Origin: Synechococcales cyanobacterium bin2.concoct.b11b12b14.033
GTDB lineage: Bacteria > Cyanobacteriota > Vampirovibrionia > Caenarcaniphilales > Caenarcanaceae
Direction: 5' to 3'
Assembly: GCA_013298875.1 (NCBI GenBank)
Contig: JAAFJH010000005.1
Coordinates: 1-54,665 of the forward strand
Length of the DNA: 54,665 nt
This document shows positions 5,469-27,116 of the stretch, one piece after another; position 1 is the stretch's first letter, and every line of letters begins with the position of its first letter. Under the pieces are notes generated by a model, which worked only from the letters and a program-made list of their open reading frames with translations, made no database searches and was not told the origin of the DNA. The position numbers were made by a program, and so were the translations under genes.

Positions 5469-6395
5469 TTAAGAATGAATGAAAGAAGTTTGTCCTAGAA
5501 TTCTTAATAGTAAAGATTTTTGAATTTGCATGAAATCTTCCTCTTCTCTTAAGCCACTAAAATCTATACCTAGTAATTTTCCGGAGCGTCTAAGTTTTAA
5601 ATCGAGCCAATTGGCAATTTGAAAAGCCTCCCGGATATTTAGTCCTAAAGAATTAATAATACACATATCCCAAAAAACATAAATTCTTTCAATATTTTCA
5701 GTTTCAATAATCTGTTCAATCTCTTGCAAAGCAATATTCAAGCCAAATTCCTCAATTAAATCAACTGAATAATATCTAAAATTGGGCTTAACCGATGAAA
5801 CCTGATTTAAACCTAAATTAATAATTTCTGATTCGGCTAAAATATTTCGGCCGACGGGGAAATCTAAAGCTTTTAAAAGAGTTTGATAATTTAAGTTTTG
5901 TAATTCTTTTTGTAAAAGCGTCGTTAAAAATATTTCTTCGGCAAAACAAGGTATTTTGCTTTTTAAAGACAATTTACAATCAATATGTAATAAAGCAAAT
6001 TTATTATCGGGTAAAACTTTTTGAACGGCCTGCAAAGCTCCATTAATTGAACCAATTGAAATAGTAGGATCTAAAGCCAAGTTAATTGGTAAAACATTAT
6101 TATTAATGGCTTGTTCAGTCCTAAATTTGGCGGAACGACAGTCAAAAATAATTTGTTCAATATTTTTAATGCCTGATGACATATTGCTGCGGGGATATTT
6201 GCTCAAATCCGCTAGAGAAGCATCTACATTATGGCCTAATTCCAGGCAGTTTTCGGCAATTAAATTAAATAATTTTTGAGGAGTTTGTGTATTGAATTTT
6301 TCAGGCTGGGCTAAGCCACTTTTATTCAAACTCAAAATAAATTCAATGGCATTAACAACATTATTTGAATTGTCTCTGTCTAAGCTTAAACTCAT
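5469..6395 (-). CDS. Uncharacterised protein upstream-linked to lepB
   Basis: This 308-residue protein is soluble-looking and has no signal peptide. I do not recognise the family. Visible features are repeated mixed alpha/beta segments such as RIYVFWDMCIINSLGLNIRE and GKLLGIDFSGLREEEDF near the C-terminus, and NKFALLHIDCKL in the middle, suggestive of a Rossmann-like or P-loop-derived fold without a Walker A. It begins 7 bases after the lepB stop, so it is probably the second gene of a lepB operon. It ends against the mlaD stop (convergent, no gap). Function unknown. Confidence 0.65.
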   Translation of the reverse strand: MSLSLDRDNSNNVVNAIEFILSLNKSGLAQPEKFNTQTPQKLFNLIAENCLELGHNVDASLADLSKYPRSNMSSGIKNIEQIIFDCRSAKFRTEQAINNNVLPINLALDPTISIGSINGALQAVQKVLPDNKFALLHIDCKLSLKSKIPCFAEEIFLTTLLQKELQNLNYQTLLKALDFPVGRNILAESEIINLGLNQVSSVKPNFRYYSVDLIEEFGLNIALQEIEQIIETENIERIYVFWDMCIINSLGLNIREAFQIANWLDLKLRRSGKLLGIDFSGLREEEDFMQIQKSLLLRILGQTSFIHS

Positions 6396-14073: not shown

Positions 14074-14144
14074 AATTACTAGAATTTTCATAAATGTCTG
14101 TCATTGGCTTGTCTCATTGAGTTGGCAGATAAATTAATTATTTC
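14074..14144. repeat. Relic copy of the purL 3' end
   Basis: These 71 bases match 14737-14807 at 65 positions without gaps. On the minus strand this copy reads IINLSANSMRQANDRHL and stop, the end of PurL, followed by the start MKILVI of the next gene. It is therefore a fossil purL end lying about 660 bases beyond the true one. The two copies bracket the small genes at 14189 and 14434. Confidence 0.9.
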
Positions 14145-14458: not shown

Positions 14459-14754
14459 AAATACTTTTTTAAAAAAATTATTATTTCGCCAATAAGTACC
14501 CATAAACTCATCAATCCAGCGGAAATAATAAAATTAGAAATAAATGGAAATTTTTCTTCTTCAATCTTTGATTTTAAGTATTCTCTAAAAGGTTGTACTG
14601 ACAAAAACAAAATGCAAATAACCATAGGAAAATTTAATACTAAATATCTAATATTCTCGCAACCCACGTTTCCACAAAGCAAAAAATAAAATGACCCAAC
14701 GATAGGCCACAAAAAACCGGCAATCAAACCAGCAACAATTACTAGAATCTTCAT
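14434..14754 (-). CDS. Small three-helix membrane protein
   Basis: This 106-residue hydrophobic protein has about three membrane helices: residues 2-22 (ILVIVAGLIAGFLWPIVGSF), about 37-56 (LVLNFPMVICILFLSV) and about 75-95 (FIISAGLMSLWVLIGEIIIF). I do not recognise the family. Its ATG overlaps the purL stop (ATGA), so it would be translated after purL, yet its first codons are part of the duplicated purL-end block. It was therefore probably joined to purL by the duplication or insertion. It overlaps the convergent gene at 14189 at the 3' ends. Confidence 0.55.
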   Translation of the reverse strand: MKILVIVAGLIAGFLWPIVGSFYFLLCGNVGCENIRYLVLNFPMVICILFLSVQPFREYLKSKIEEEKFPFISNFIISAGLMSLWVLIGEIIIFLKKYFQLSCTGT

Positions 14755-14807
14755 AAATGTCTATCATTGGCTTGCTTCATTGAGTCAGCAGATAAATTAA
14801 TTATTTC
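14737..14807. repeat. Functional purL 3' end, second copy of the 71-bp repeat
   Basis: This block covers the last purL codons (NLSADSMKQANDRHL) and the first codons of the gene at 14434. It is the intact partner of the relic at 14074-14144, with six mismatches and no gaps. Confidence 0.9.
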
Positions 14808-22236: not shown

Positions 22237-22263
22237 TTTAATAATTGAAGAAAAAGCTACCAA

Positions 22264-22587
22264 ATGAATAATATACAAATAGTTATACAAGCTTGGCAGT
22301 TAGCAATCGCAGTCTTGGCCATTGGTTTAACTTTTGTAGCTATTTTGGTAAGTTCTTTTTGGGCTTTCTGGAATATTATCGATAAGCGGTTTGATAGGTT
22401 TGAATCCGAAATGAGATCAGAATTAAAAGAAATAAAGGAAGCTGTTTCGGGGCTGAAAACGGAGCAGGCCGTTCAAAAGAGAGAAATTGAACATCTATCC
22501 CGTGAGCAAGAACAACAAAGAAATAGGCTTGAACAAATGGTTGACTTATTTAAACAACGTATGACAAATCCCGACGCAGGAGTATAA
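22264..22587 (+). CDS. Small membrane coiled-coil protein, tandem copy 1
   Basis: This 107-residue protein has one N-terminal membrane helix (residues 10-38, QAWQLAIAVLAIGLTFVAIL then SSFWAFW) and a long heptad-rich helix from about residue 40 to 103 (ELKEIKEAVSGLKTEQAVQK, REIEHLSREQEQQRNRLEQM). It is nearly identical to the next gene, from which it is separated by two bases. The architecture recalls small phage or holin-associated membrane coils and also the protein at 14189, but no family can be named. Function unknown. Confidence 0.7.
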   Translation: MNNIQIVIQAWQLAIAVLAIGLTFVAILVSSFWAFWNIIDKRFDRFESEMRSELKEIKEAVSGLKTEQAVQKREIEHLSREQEQQRNRLEQMVDLFKQRMTNPDAGV

Positions 22588-22589
22588 AA

Positions 22590-22916
22590 ATGAATAATAT
22601 ACAAATAGTTATACAAGCTTGGCAATTAGCAATCGCAGTAGTGGCCATTGGTTTAACTTTTGTCGCTATTTTGGTAAGTTCCTTTTGGGCTTTCTGGAAT
22701 ATTATTGATAAGAGGTTTGATAAGATCGATAAACAATTTGATAAAGTAGAAGTTGATCTCAAAGAAATAAAAGAAGCTGTTTCGGGACTAAAGACAGAAC
22801 AGGCTGTTCAGAAAAGAGAAATTGAGCATTTATCCCGTGAGCAAGAACAACAAAGAAATAGACTGGAGCAAATGGTTGACTTATTTAAACAACGCATGAC
22901 AAATCCCGAAATTTAA
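22590..22916 (+). CDS. Small membrane coiled-coil protein, tandem copy 2
   Basis: This 108-residue protein is a tandem duplicate of the preceding one, offset by 326 bases. The membrane helix and the C-terminal coil are almost unchanged; the difference lies in the middle, where copy 2 has KIDKQFDKVEVDL in place of RFESEMRSEL. Two copies in one transcript could form homo- or hetero-oligomers through their coils. Its stop overlaps the convergent gene at 22913 by four bases. Function unknown. Confidence 0.7.
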   Translation: MNNIQIVIQAWQLAIAVVAIGLTFVAILVSSFWAFWNIIDKRFDKIDKQFDKVEVDLKEIKEAVSGLKTEQAVQKREIEHLSREQEQQRNRLEQMVDLFKQRMTNPEI

Positions 22917-24472
22917 TAATAAATCCCAGAAGCATTGTATTGAGCTGGCATTGGCATGGGTGGAGCATAATAATTATTATAATTACTTGCATTTACCTGT
23001 ATAGGGGAAGCTTGTTGCATTTGTGGCATTGGTTGTTGGGCGGGCAAATAATTTTGTACTAATTGCTGTGGAGACAAAGAGCCATTCTGCAAAGCCATAT
23101 AATCATTTTGTGAAATTGGAATAGTTTGTACCTCCTCATTATTTAAAGGCATTGACTGAACTGGAGCCTGGTACATTGGCTGCTGAGTATTAAAATTTGC
23201 TGATGGTTGCATTTGTGGCATTGGTTGTTGAGCGGGCAAATAATTTTGTACTAATTGCTGTGGAGACAAAGAGCCATTTTGCAAAGCCATATAATCATTT
23301 TGTGAAATTGGAATAGTTTGTACTTCTTCGGTATTTAAAGGCAGTGGCTGTTGGGCTGTAGCATAATTTGGCTGAACTGAAATGGCTTGAGGTTGTAGTT
23401 GTTGAATATTGAAATTTCCGCTTGGCTGAATTTGTTGAATTGGCTGGGCTTGAGTTTGAATTTGGGGTGCAACTTCTTGTTGCTGAATTTGACGCTGAAT
23501 GGGGGGCAAAACTTGTACTTTTACTGGTGTTGAATCGGTTAAAATATTATAATTAGACTCTGACTCCGCCTCTGCATTTGTATTTTGCGAGTAAGAATTG
23601 TTAGCATAAGAGTTATTTTCTTCCTCTTCGGGTAATAAAATATTTCGGATTTGTCTTTTGCTGGTTCTTTGCATTTTTTGAACTGGTCTATTAGTCACTT
23701 CATAATCATTTTGAGCAATTTCATTTTCATTAGCCACATTCACATTAGTCAAATCCACATTTTCTCTTTCTGAAAGTAGGTCTTCAAGTTTTATTTCACC
23801 CGTTTTCAAAGCCTCTAATTCTTCCTGGGTAATTTTAATAGCCTTTTTGGTAATTAAAGAATTTAAGCTTGGGCTTTGTGAATTATTGTTGATTGATGCG
23901 GAATTTGGGGACGACCGGGCGTTTCGATGAGAAACTAAATTACGACCTCTTTGATGACTAGACGCCATGTCTTGAATATCCTGACTAATGTCTTCACCAT
24001 CTTCTAGACGGGTTAATAAGTCTTGGGATTTTTCCTGACTCTCCGCGGAACACCAATTGGTAGAGTTTAAATATCCTTTGCATAAATAATAATTACGTCC
24101 ATTAATTTCGGCTTTATAAGCTAAGTATTTAATTTTGGTTTCATCATAATTACTGGACAAATCAATAATTGGTAATTTGGCATATGCCTCTAATCTTTTG
24201 CCAGTAGTGCATTTAGCTAAATAACGGTCTACAATTTTCTTTTCATTGGCTATTAAAGGGCTGCCCAAATAACCTCCATTACAAACAACATAGCCAAATC
24301 TTTCGTCTGGAGAGTCATCCCGAATTTCAATTTTCCACTTGCTTTTAGTGTCCATTACAAAAACACCCGGGTAAATTTCTGCTGACTGAGCCGGAGATGA
24401 ATTTAAGCCACAATAAGAAATATAACCGAAAAATAAAAGACTGAAATTAACTAATTTTTTATTGATAAACAT
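22913..24472 (-). CDS. Secreted Gln/Pro-rich repeat protein
   Basis: This 519-residue protein starts with a signal peptide (KKLVNFSLLFFGYISYCG, with a probable cut after AQSAE about residue 31). Residues 32-150 form a small cysteine-containing domain (CNGGYLG, KCTTGKRLEAY, YLCKGYLNSTNWC) that may be disulfide-linked. Beyond residue 170 the chain is low-complexity, rich in Asn, Ser, Gln and Pro. Near the C-terminus a 64-residue unit containing EVQTIPISQNDYMALQNGSL and SPQQLVQNYLPAQQP occurs twice. LTRLEDGEDIS and ITQEELEALKTGEIKLEDLL look like related single motifs. Probably periplasmic or surface-exposed; function unknown. Confidence 0.7.
   Translation of the reverse strand: MFINKKLVNFSLLFFGYISYCGLNSSPAQSAEIYPGVFVMDTKSKWKIEIRDDSPDERFGYVVCNGGYLGSPLIANEKKIVDRYLAKCTTGKRLEAYAKLPIIDLSSNYDETKIKYLAYKAEINGRNYYLCKGYLNSTNWCSAESQEKSQDLLTRLEDGEDISQDIQDMASSHQRGRNLVSHRNARSSPNSASINNNSQSPSLNSLITKKAIKITQEELEALKTGEIKLEDLLSERENVDLTNVNVANENEIAQNDYEVTNRPVQKMQRTSKRQIRNILLPEEEENNSYANNSYSQNTNAEAESESNYNILTDSTPVKVQVLPPIQRQIQQQEVAPQIQTQAQPIQQIQPSGNFNIQQLQPQAISVQPNYATAQQPLPLNTEEVQTIPISQNDYMALQNGSLSPQQLVQNYLPAQQPMPQMQPSANFNTQQPMYQAPVQSMPLNNEEVQTIPISQNDYMALQNGSLSPQQLVQNYLPAQQPMPQMQQASPIQVNASNYNNYYAPPMPMPAQYNASGIYY
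23015..23343. repeat. Two 137-bp direct repeats within the Gln-rich gene
   Basis: Bases 23015-23151 and 23207-23343 are nearly identical, offset by 192 bases (64 codons). They encode the duplicated unit SQNDYMALQNGSLSPQQLVQ. The low divergence suggests recent duplication or gene conversion; copy number could vary between strains. Confidence 0.85.
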
Positions 24473-24642: not shown

Positions 24643-25311
24643 TCAACTTAAAAATATAGCCTTGCCTAGTCTTAACATGGTAGAACCAGCCTTAATCGCT
24701 TCAGGGTAATCCCCGGACATGCCCATTGAAAGCTCAGTTAAATTTAAATTAGATAATTTTTCGGCATTTATTTTTTCTTTTAAAGTTTTTAATTCAACAA
24801 ATAGTTCATAGTTAGACGCTGGGCTTAAACCAAAAGGCAAAATAGTCATTAGGCCAATAATATTTAAATTATTTAATTCGCTAATTGAAACTAATGAATT
24901 GAGCAAATCTGTCGGCAGAAAACCACTTTTATTATCATCGGGAGCCAATTTGACTTGTAATAGAATTTTATTTTTATTTTGTAAATTCAGATCTCCGGCC
25001 AATTGATTTAATTTAATTAAAATATCCAAACTATCGGCTGAATGAATATAAGTAAAGTTCAAAAGTATTTGTTTAGCTTTATTAGTTTGCAATTTGCCAA
25101 TAAAATGCCAAGTTAAATTTAAGCTGTTTAACTCCTGTTGTTTAATTAAAGCTTCTTGCAGGCGGCTCTCGGCAAAATGTTGAAAACCCATTTCATATGC
25201 AATTTTAATACTTTCGATCGATTCACGTTTACTAACTGCAATTAAAAGAATTTGCTTTGATAATCCTTCAATTTGATTTTTGAGAATTTTAACTTTATCG
25301 GCAAACATCAA
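24643..25311 (-). CDS. yggS: YggS/PLPBP-family pyridoxal phosphate homeostasis protein
   Basis: This family binds pyridoxal 5'-phosphate without a known catalytic reaction and helps maintain free PLP. The PLP-binding lysine is K28 in LLIAVSKRES. Other family motifs are HFAESRLQEALIKQ, TWHFIGKLQTNKAK and the C-terminal ELSMGMSGDYPEAIKAGSTM (phosphate-binding). At 222 residues it is normal. Its 5' end overlaps the lipoprotein gene at 25295 by 17 bases, so the two are one operon. Confidence 0.9.
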   Translation of the reverse strand: MMFADKVKILKNQIEGLSKQILLIAVSKRESIESIKIAYEMGFQHFAESRLQEALIKQQELNSLNLTWHFIGKLQTNKAKQILLNFTYIHSADSLDILIKLNQLAGDLNLQNKNKILLQVKLAPDDNKSGFLPTDLLNSLVSISELNNLNIIGLMTILPFGLSPASNYELFVELKTLKEKINAEKLSNLNLTELSMGMSGDYPEAIKAGSTMLRLGKAIFLS

Positions 25312-26023
25312 TTAATACTTGATTGGATGAGTAAGTTACTGGTAAACCTTCCGGATAATTATAATTCATCAATAAATACCAATTTGTTTCATGACAATAA
25401 TCTTTTAGACGGTCTTTAAGCAAAGCTTTTTTATTTTGCATTTTTACCATTAAGTCCGCAAAGCCATTCGTTTGAGTAAAATCAAATTTATTGACATTTA
25501 TTTTCTTTAAACCTTTAAAAGGCGATTTTTCTTCTAGATAAGTTAACAATTGTATATTGGCTCCTTCAGAGCGAGAAAAGGGCGGTTTATCCCAAGTGAA
25601 GAAAATTTTATCCGCTTCAGAAGTATCTCTAAAAGCTCTCAAATCCCAATCAAAAGTTAAAATAGCTGGCAAATACAAATCCATATTAAAATCACTGGAC
25701 AAATTAGCTTTTATGAAAGGGGGTTTTTGCTTCAGTTCAGGTCTTTCGCCGTAAGCATAAATAATCACAAAAGGACCATCTTTAACTTCGCTCTTTTTAA
25801 TTTTAAATTCATAATCAGTATATTCATTCAGCTGAGTGCGATATTGAATTGAGCCGTCAGCATTACTTAATAAAAGTTCTTGTCCTTTTTCTGCTCCAAA
25901 AAATGCGCCCTGAATGGTATAAACTGTCTCAGATTTAGGTTTTATTTTTTGATTACAACCATTCAAAAATCCTAAAATTAAAAATAATGAGAATGCAGAA
26001 AATAAAGATAAATATTTTTTCAC
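25295..26023 (-). CDS. Predicted lipoprotein of unknown function
   Basis: This 242-residue protein begins at GTG (26021-26023) with KKYLSLFSAFSLFLILGF and a lipobox LNGC (Cys about 23), so it should be lipid-anchored. The mature part has TVYTIQGAFFGAEKGQELLL and many beta-strand-like segments; it ends with DVCR. I do not recognise the family. The -10 box TATAAT at 26061-26066 and the start codon lie inside a block that is duplicated at 26656-26755. It overlaps yggS downstream. Confidence 0.65.
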   Translation of the reverse strand: MKKYLSLFSAFSLFLILGFLNGCNQKIKPKSETVYTIQGAFFGAEKGQELLLSNADGSIQYRTQLNEYTDYEFKIKKSEVKDGPFVIIYAYGERPELKQKPPFIKANLSSDFNMDLYLPAILTFDWDLRAFRDTSEADKIFFTWDKPPFSRSEGANIQLLTYLEEKSPFKGLKKINVNKFDFTQTNGFADLMVKMQNKKALLKDRLKDYCHETNWYLLMNYNYPEGLPVTYSSNQVLIDVCR

Positions 26024-26114
26024 GGTCTAAAAGGCAAAGTCAGAAAGTTTTATGAAACCAATTATAAATACTTTACACTAAAAACGAAAACCTATTTTCG
26101 GAGAAGTTTTGTCT
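26015..26114. repeat. Direct repeat, left copy: lipoprotein promoter and start
   Basis: The block matches 26656-26755 at 91 of 94 gap-free positions (offset 641). It contains the lipoprotein GTG start, the -10 box TATAAT (minus strand, 26061-26066) and a perfect hairpin CGAAAA-CCTA-TTTTCG at 26085-26100. The two copies bracket the toxin-antitoxin module. Confidence 0.92.
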
Positions 26115-26173
26115 TCAGTATTTGTTTTTATGCCTGATGAGGTATTTTGAATAAAACCAATTCACCAATAATT

Positions 26174-26443
26174 TTAAGGAAATAATCGGTAAAAACCTTC
26201 CCTGCTAGAAATTCTCAATAATTCTAAAATCTCTGAGTCTGCTTTTATACCAATACGATAATTATAATCAAACTTAATTCTATAATAATCATTTGTACCG
26301 GATATTTTCTCTAGATTATTGATTTGAAGCAAAGAGCCAGCTTAAGCAATGTTTTCGATAACTTTTTGAATTTTCTCCCTAATTCGATTATCTTTAATCC
26401 TTTGAAAATCCTTCAGAAAAGACCTTTCAACTTTGAATTTCAT
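26174..26443 (-). pseudogene. RelE-family toxin with premature stop
   Basis: From ATG at 26441-26443 the frame reads MKFKVERSFLKDFQRIKDNR and, after a TAA at 26342-26344 (codon 34), continues in frame with LLQINNLEKI, then DYYRIKFDYNYRIGIKAD and FYRLFP to a second stop at 26174. The whole is a normal 89-codon RelE/mRNA-interferase fold; the single nonsense codon, probably from GAA or CAA, should inactivate it. It overlaps the antitoxin stop (ATGA). Confidence 0.85.
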
Positions 26444-26664
26444 ACTCTTTCATTTAAAGTTTTTGATAATTCTTCTTCTGTTACCCAATCACCTTTTTCA
26501 TGAGCTTGCTTACAGGCCAAATAAAAAGTTAATTCTTCTAATTCTTTTTGATTTTTAAGAGCAAATTCCTCGAAAAAAATTAACTTAGCTTCACTAGAAC
26601 TAACTTCAAAAAGGGAAAATAAACTTTTACCGATATTTAAGTCTTGTTCAGTCATATTTTTCAC
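26440..26664 (-). CDS. Antitoxin-like partner of the broken RelE toxin
   Basis: This protein is 74 residues from GTG 26664, or 71 from the internal ATG at 26653-26655 (MTEQDLNIGK). It is acidic with helical segments (EAKLIFFEEFALKNQKELEE) and ends EELSKTLNERV. The family is not clear to me; its overlap by four bases with a RelE-type frame and its size support an antitoxin role. Its first codons (GTG AAA AA) and promoter come from the duplicated lipoprotein-start block, so it is now expressed from a borrowed promoter. Confidence 0.65.
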   Translation of the reverse strand: MKNMTEQDLNIGKSLFSLFEVSSSEAKLIFFEEFALKNQKELEELTFYLACKQAHEKGDWVTEEELSKTLNERV

Positions 26665-26755
26665 AGTCTAAAAGACAAAGTCAGAAAGTTTCATGAAACC
26701 AATTATAAATACTTTACACTAAAAACGAAAACCTATTTTCGGAGAAGTTTTGTCT
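26656..26755. repeat. Direct repeat, right copy: antitoxin promoter and start
   Basis: This is the second copy of the block at 26015-26114, with three mismatches. It carries the same -10 box TATAAT (minus strand, 26702-26707) and the same hairpin, 38 bases upstream of the GTG at 26664. Confidence 0.92.
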
Positions 26756-26780
26756 CAAAAAAATAATTTGCCTTTTTCTG

Positions 26781-26924
26781 TCTGAATCACAGATGGACGC
26801 AGGTTGTCTTGAACTTGGATTACGCTGATTAAATGATGAACTATGATTTTTATTTTTACGGTTTTACTCTAAAGTGCTTAATCATGGTAATCCCTAAATC
26901 ATTTTAATCAGAGTTCAAGACAAC
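26781..26924. repeat. MITE-like element with 13-bp terminal inverted repeats, copy 2
   Basis: GTTGTCTTGAACT at 26803-26815 is repeated perfectly and inverted at 26912-26924, giving a 122-bp element without a reading frame. Inside, GATTAAATGAT and ATCATTTTAATC form a further near-inverted pair. A half-repeat, TCTGAATCACAGATGGACGC, precedes it, as in copy 1 at 1662-1802. This is the least decayed copy in the window. Confidence 0.82.
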
Positions 26925-27116
26925 AAAACTGTAAATCAAATATCAGAGTGCTCCCAAAGAAGGGGAACATAGTAACGCAAAACTACCCTCGCTTTTGAAT
27001 TGAAAATAAAGACTATCATGACTTTTAAAGTTCTTTCCTGAAGCACTTTCTCTATTTTTTCTCCGTCGAACTCACGTTAAATAAGATAAAAAAAGAAGAA
27101 TTTCGTCCAACTTACC
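26925..27116. other. Gap with a solitary IS982-type end
   Basis: No gene is visible. CGTCGAACTCACGTT at about 27064-27078 is the reverse complement of the end of the IS982 copy at 45764 (AACGTGAGTTCGACG). The sequence to its left is AT-rich and does not clearly match transposase, so this is at most an isolated IS end or a badly decayed copy. Confidence 0.5.

Follow-up and report, generated by a model that had tools for sequence, protein, structure and literature searches.

A copied lipoprotein leader at the start of a RelE-type toxin-antitoxin operon in a Candidatus Caenarcaniphilales genome

Promoter capture via short tandem duplications, with microhomology of ~9 bp, has been documented experimentally in bacteria (PMC11111574), in a work that also cites the spontaneous-tandem-duplication promoter captures of Li and Bock (2019) and Anderson and Roth (1978). 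In the captures as outlined there, a short-range duplication joined at microhomology places the promoter of a downstream gene before an upstream gene, and the locus analysed here resembles them in these respects. It differs from them, as far as that outline goes, in that 99 bp are left duplicated, the outer operon copy is gone and there is no known selection, and in that the block was gained by a toxin-antitoxin operon of a natural genome. The operon itself is best compared with RelBE-type (type II) systems, with which it shares a RelE-like toxin, whose nearest solved relative is RelE3 (PDB code 3bpq), and a small upstream antitoxin gene that overlaps the toxin gene.

At this locus, the promoter-like block of one gene is present in a second copy that is joined at the start of a neighbouring gene, and the event appears to be ordinary promoter capture by local duplication rather than the recent insertion of a gene cassette. 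It offers a clean, natural case of how a short local duplication can equip an operon with a new promoter, in which both the direction and the relative age of the duplication are readable from one relative. It also carries a caution: a gene pair flanked by direct repeats need not be an insertion. Provided that the captured promoter works, the locus would allow a test of whether toxin loss follows when a toxin-antitoxin operon is deprived of its own leader.

A 99-nt repeat at two gene starts

The window, 54,665 nt of contig C91, belongs to the 2.15-Mb, 145-contig metagenome assembly (G000) of a Candidatus Caenarcaniphilales bacterium (Cyanobacteriota), a non-photosynthetic relative of cyanobacteria. 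It contains a gapless direct repeat of 99 nt (26016-26114 and 26657-26755, 641-nt spacing) with 96 of 99 positions identical, which is real and slightly better than the 91 of 94 quoted in a first-pass annotation of this DNA; position 26015/26656, just outside the repeat, is already a mismatch. The similarity is non-random (E = 2e-42 in a whole-genome search). Copy 1 (26016..26114, minus strand) is the ancestral one and holds the promoter/leader region and first codons (GTG AAA AA) of a lipoprotein-like gene; it agrees at 89 of 99 positions with its orthologue in G001, our one genome of the same genus, where a single block precedes that gene. Copy 2 (26657..26755, minus strand) is derived and now forms the upstream region of the antitoxin gene, to which it contributes an in-frame GTG AAA AAT ahead of the antitoxin's own ATG (26655). 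That copy 2 precedes the antitoxin gene with a captured start, the lipoprotein gene having kept its own block, had been recognized at first pass and is borne out. We rejected the full block as a dispersed repeat present at many unrelated loci, the outcome named in that annotation as fatal to its reading: a whole-assembly search returned two full copies only, none was found in plasmids, and one exact 26-mer of the block had no match in viral contigs.

The lipoprotein-like gene (25295..26023, minus strand) is an ORF of 242 aa, and its GTG start is backed by G001. Its orthologues are 85% identical in G001 and 39% in G003, and the gene is present in 3 of 60 genomes: its own, the one of the same genus and one of another genus of the family. 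A scan of genome contigs with the protein found one relative (CANLFK010000009.1, from a Candidatus Caenarcaniphilales MAG), which fits contig C9 of G001. The protein matches no Pfam family. With this narrow distribution and no Pfam family, the earlier description of the promoter as a housekeeping one is unsupported.

On the minus strand, each copy has the hexamer TATAAT 37 nt before GTGAAAAA, giving candidate -10 boxes at 26061..26066 in copy 1, where the 37 nt run to the GTG start, and at 26702..26707 in copy 2. G001 retains both the hexamer and the 37-nt spacing, and about 0.09 occurrences of TATAAT are expected by chance per 94 nt of one strand. A consensus scan of the block found no good -35 box. 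Synonymous divergence between G000 and G001 is 0.4-0.9 and the gap between toxin and block is barely alignable; the retention of the block at 90% amid such divergence fits constraint on a real leader. The block is therefore treated here as a putative promoter only. It also holds a 6-bp inverted repeat, CGAAAA/TTTTCG, which is not kept in G001, and it folds no better than shuffled sequences (z of +1.5 and +1.65). On these grounds we rejected the hairpin as a functional feature, and it is probably meaningless: among the contents first ascribed to the block, TATAAT is present in both copies and the GTG start holds, while the hairpin drops out.

A RelE-like toxin with an early stop codon

The antitoxin gene (26440..26664, minus strand) encodes 71 aa if translated from its native ATG (26655) and 74 aa if translation starts at the captured GTG (26664). 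The protein is 96% identical to that of G001 (dN/dS 0.07), was detected in G000 and G001 only among 289 genomes of the class, and is similar over 54 residues (33%) to the small protein encoded ahead of the closest relative that the toxin has elsewhere in the phylum. The toxin gene (26174..26443, minus strand) overlaps the antitoxin stop codon (ATGA). We assign its product to the RelE fold by homology to RelE3 (phmmer E = 2.4e-9); its match to NCBIfam RelE_StbE (E = 0.0024) is below the family cut-off. Relatives of the toxin occur in 61 of 386 genomes of the phylum, and a small ORF lies just upstream of the toxin relative at 19 of the 19 loci examined. PADLOC returned nothing for the toxin and antitoxin proteins.

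Codon 34 of the toxin gene is an in-frame TAA (26342-26344) in the window and CAA in G001, where the gene is intact. The product of the interrupted gene, 33 residues long, would cover no more than the N-terminal third of the domain. The dN/dS of the gene is 0.17 after the stop and 0.14 before it, and the similarity of these values on either side indicates that the break is recent or unfixed. Unlike RelBE-type systems, the locus has an interrupted toxin, a replaced native leader and an antitoxin outside the Pfam and NCBIfam families, as searches of both gave no convincing match to it. Judged from its sequence, the toxin-antitoxin pair in G000 is a broken member of type II RelBE.

Age and direction of the duplication

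The history of the locus is read against the single outgroup G001, in which the gene order is ffh, a CcdA-like membrane protein gene, an rfaE-type nucleotidyltransferase gene, antitoxin, toxin, block, lipoprotein and yggS (apart from yggS and the toxin, genes were named by similarity, as read from translations). The window aligns with G001 from the antitoxin start onward at about 82-83%, and collinearity ends at 26658, precisely where copy 2 meets the antitoxin. G001 has one block, before the lipoprotein gene, and none before the antitoxin gene, whose leader there is a different, native one (TTGTGAGGAAAATTAAAATG) with a Shine-Dalgarno-like AGGA. Since the module already lies beside the lipoprotein gene in G001 with a single block, it is older than copy 2.

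The copies differ from each other at 3 of 99 positions. Relative to the G001 block, copy 1 has 10 differences and copy 2 has 12, each over 99 positions and with one gap in addition. Divergence of 3% between the copies, against ~10% between the blocks of the two species, places the copying after the species split, and copy 2 is, as first proposed, a young duplicate of the lipoprotein leader. Had the duplication predated the split, a 12% rate would give three or fewer differences with P of about 0.002. Two of the observed differences are derived in copy 2, with copy 1 in the G001 state, and none is assignable to copy 1; the copying therefore ran from lipoprotein to antitoxin. A history in which G001 formerly had copy 2 and then lost it is disfavoured by this comparison. 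The duplication could seem younger than it is if the copies had undergone gene conversion, but copy 2 would then still have to have disappeared from G001.

Upstream of the breakpoint, the surroundings of the operon are rearranged. The G000 orthologue of the rfaE-type gene is on another contig, C65, and the DegT-type aminotransferase gene that adjoins the module in the window is located on contig C3 in G001. Next to copy 2, on its upstream side, lies a dispersed, MITE-like repeat of ~170 bp (26776..26944), strongly palindromic (fold z about -6) and with many genome copies, of which good ones are at C91:1662-1814 and on C102, C80, C53 and C59. A second dispersed repeat family (26955..27093) is found between copy 2 and the DegT-type gene.

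Copying route and rival explanations

We consider it probable that a 99-bp lipoprotein promoter/start region was captured, by local copying, onto a resident toxin-antitoxin operon. The RelE-type operon was a long-standing neighbour on the upstream side of the lipoprotein gene. Once the lineage had separated from that of G001, the lipoprotein promoter and start region was copied 641 bp upstream, where it abuts the antitoxin's start codon in place of the native leader and all that lay further out. Illegitimate recombination, at microhomology near the A-rich starts of the two genes, would be the likely route. The join, GTGAAAAATATGACTG, is a mix of the lipoprotein start GTGAAAAAATAT and the A-rich native leader (GTGAGGAAAATTAAAATGACTG in G001), and this blended sequence fits a microhomology join; the certain microhomology amounts to a few bases only, the comparison leader being that of G001 and perhaps not the ancestral one of this lineage. 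The copy could have arisen by tandem duplication of the toxin-antitoxin pair together with the block, followed by loss of the outer module, or by a template switch during repair of the upstream rearrangement. A search of the genome for remains of a second toxin-antitoxin copy came up empty, so the tandem route lacks a direct trace and the data are compatible with either. The operon would now stand behind a second-hand promoter, presumably freed from its native autoregulation; its toxin carries an early stop codon. The 99-bp direct repeats would permit clean deletion of the module.

The exact placement of the module between the two copies would also be expected had it been inserted upstream of the lipoprotein gene, with the block duplicated along with the insertion, which is how the first-pass annotation had its cargo arrive. 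We regard this as highly improbable: in G001 the same pair sits at the same place behind its own leader without a second copy, and the divergence of the copies is far under that between species. A relative with an empty site carrying one repeat copy had been suggested as a check, and G001 shows the reverse, cargo together with one block. An artefact of the metagenome assembly is very unlikely too. The assembly is in 145 contigs and the breakpoint is beside dispersed repeats; against this, there are three differences between the copies, which run into two distinct flanks with no N, and the antitoxin frame is kept.

Copy 2 might instead reflect the movement of a small dispersed promoter-carrying element within the block (about 70-85 bp, with ends AGACAAA...TTTGTCT), which we hold to be unlikely. 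The suggested search for the same block elsewhere had a divided outcome: the full block is confined to its two copies, and a profile of its outer ~70 bp finds one further strong locus per genome, a diverged core at G000:C1:36054-36125 and at G001:C82:8762-8825. The outer edge of copy 2 coincides with that of the core. However, copy 2 adds the 28-bp lipoprotein leader and start codons, which are absent from the other loci, and these lipoprotein-specific bases indicate that it was copied from the lipoprotein locus; moreover, each genome yielded a single strong additional locus, with no mobile-element enzyme linked. Quite unlikely as well is the broader proposal that the block holds a low-copy mobile promoter element of the genus, which rewires neighbours and freed the toxin-antitoxin operon from its own control, toxin decay following. 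Local capture of the lipoprotein leader remains the reading that we prefer.

The G000 core (L015, about 6055-6126) lies ~110 bp upstream of a glutamate-tRNA-ligase-type gene, beside decayed ORF remnants. By eye, the cores in both genomes have AGAC...GTCT ends, and they may represent a miniature element of very low copy number. The weak matches to the core in G002-G004 were discarded as apparent chance hits; the best (E = 2e-4, G004:C2) is in an unrelated context.

Other repeats are present in the window. Another direct repeat, laid out much like that of the 99-nt block, is 71 nt long and 92% identical and occupies 14074-14144 and 14737-14807, 663 nt apart. One of its copies spans the 3′ end of purL and the start of a small membrane-protein gene, and the other lies past two small ORFs, adjoining an scpB-like gene; in G001, purL is followed by a diverged small membrane-protein ORF, as read from the sequence, and the repeat is there in a single copy. 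At 22262-22909, a gene for a small membrane/coiled-coil protein has recently been duplicated in tandem (107 and 108 aa; segments 90-93% identical). Finally, a gene for a Q/P-rich, exported-looking protein has an internal 145-nt repeat (23014-23350, 94%), and G001 has internal repeats of its own there.
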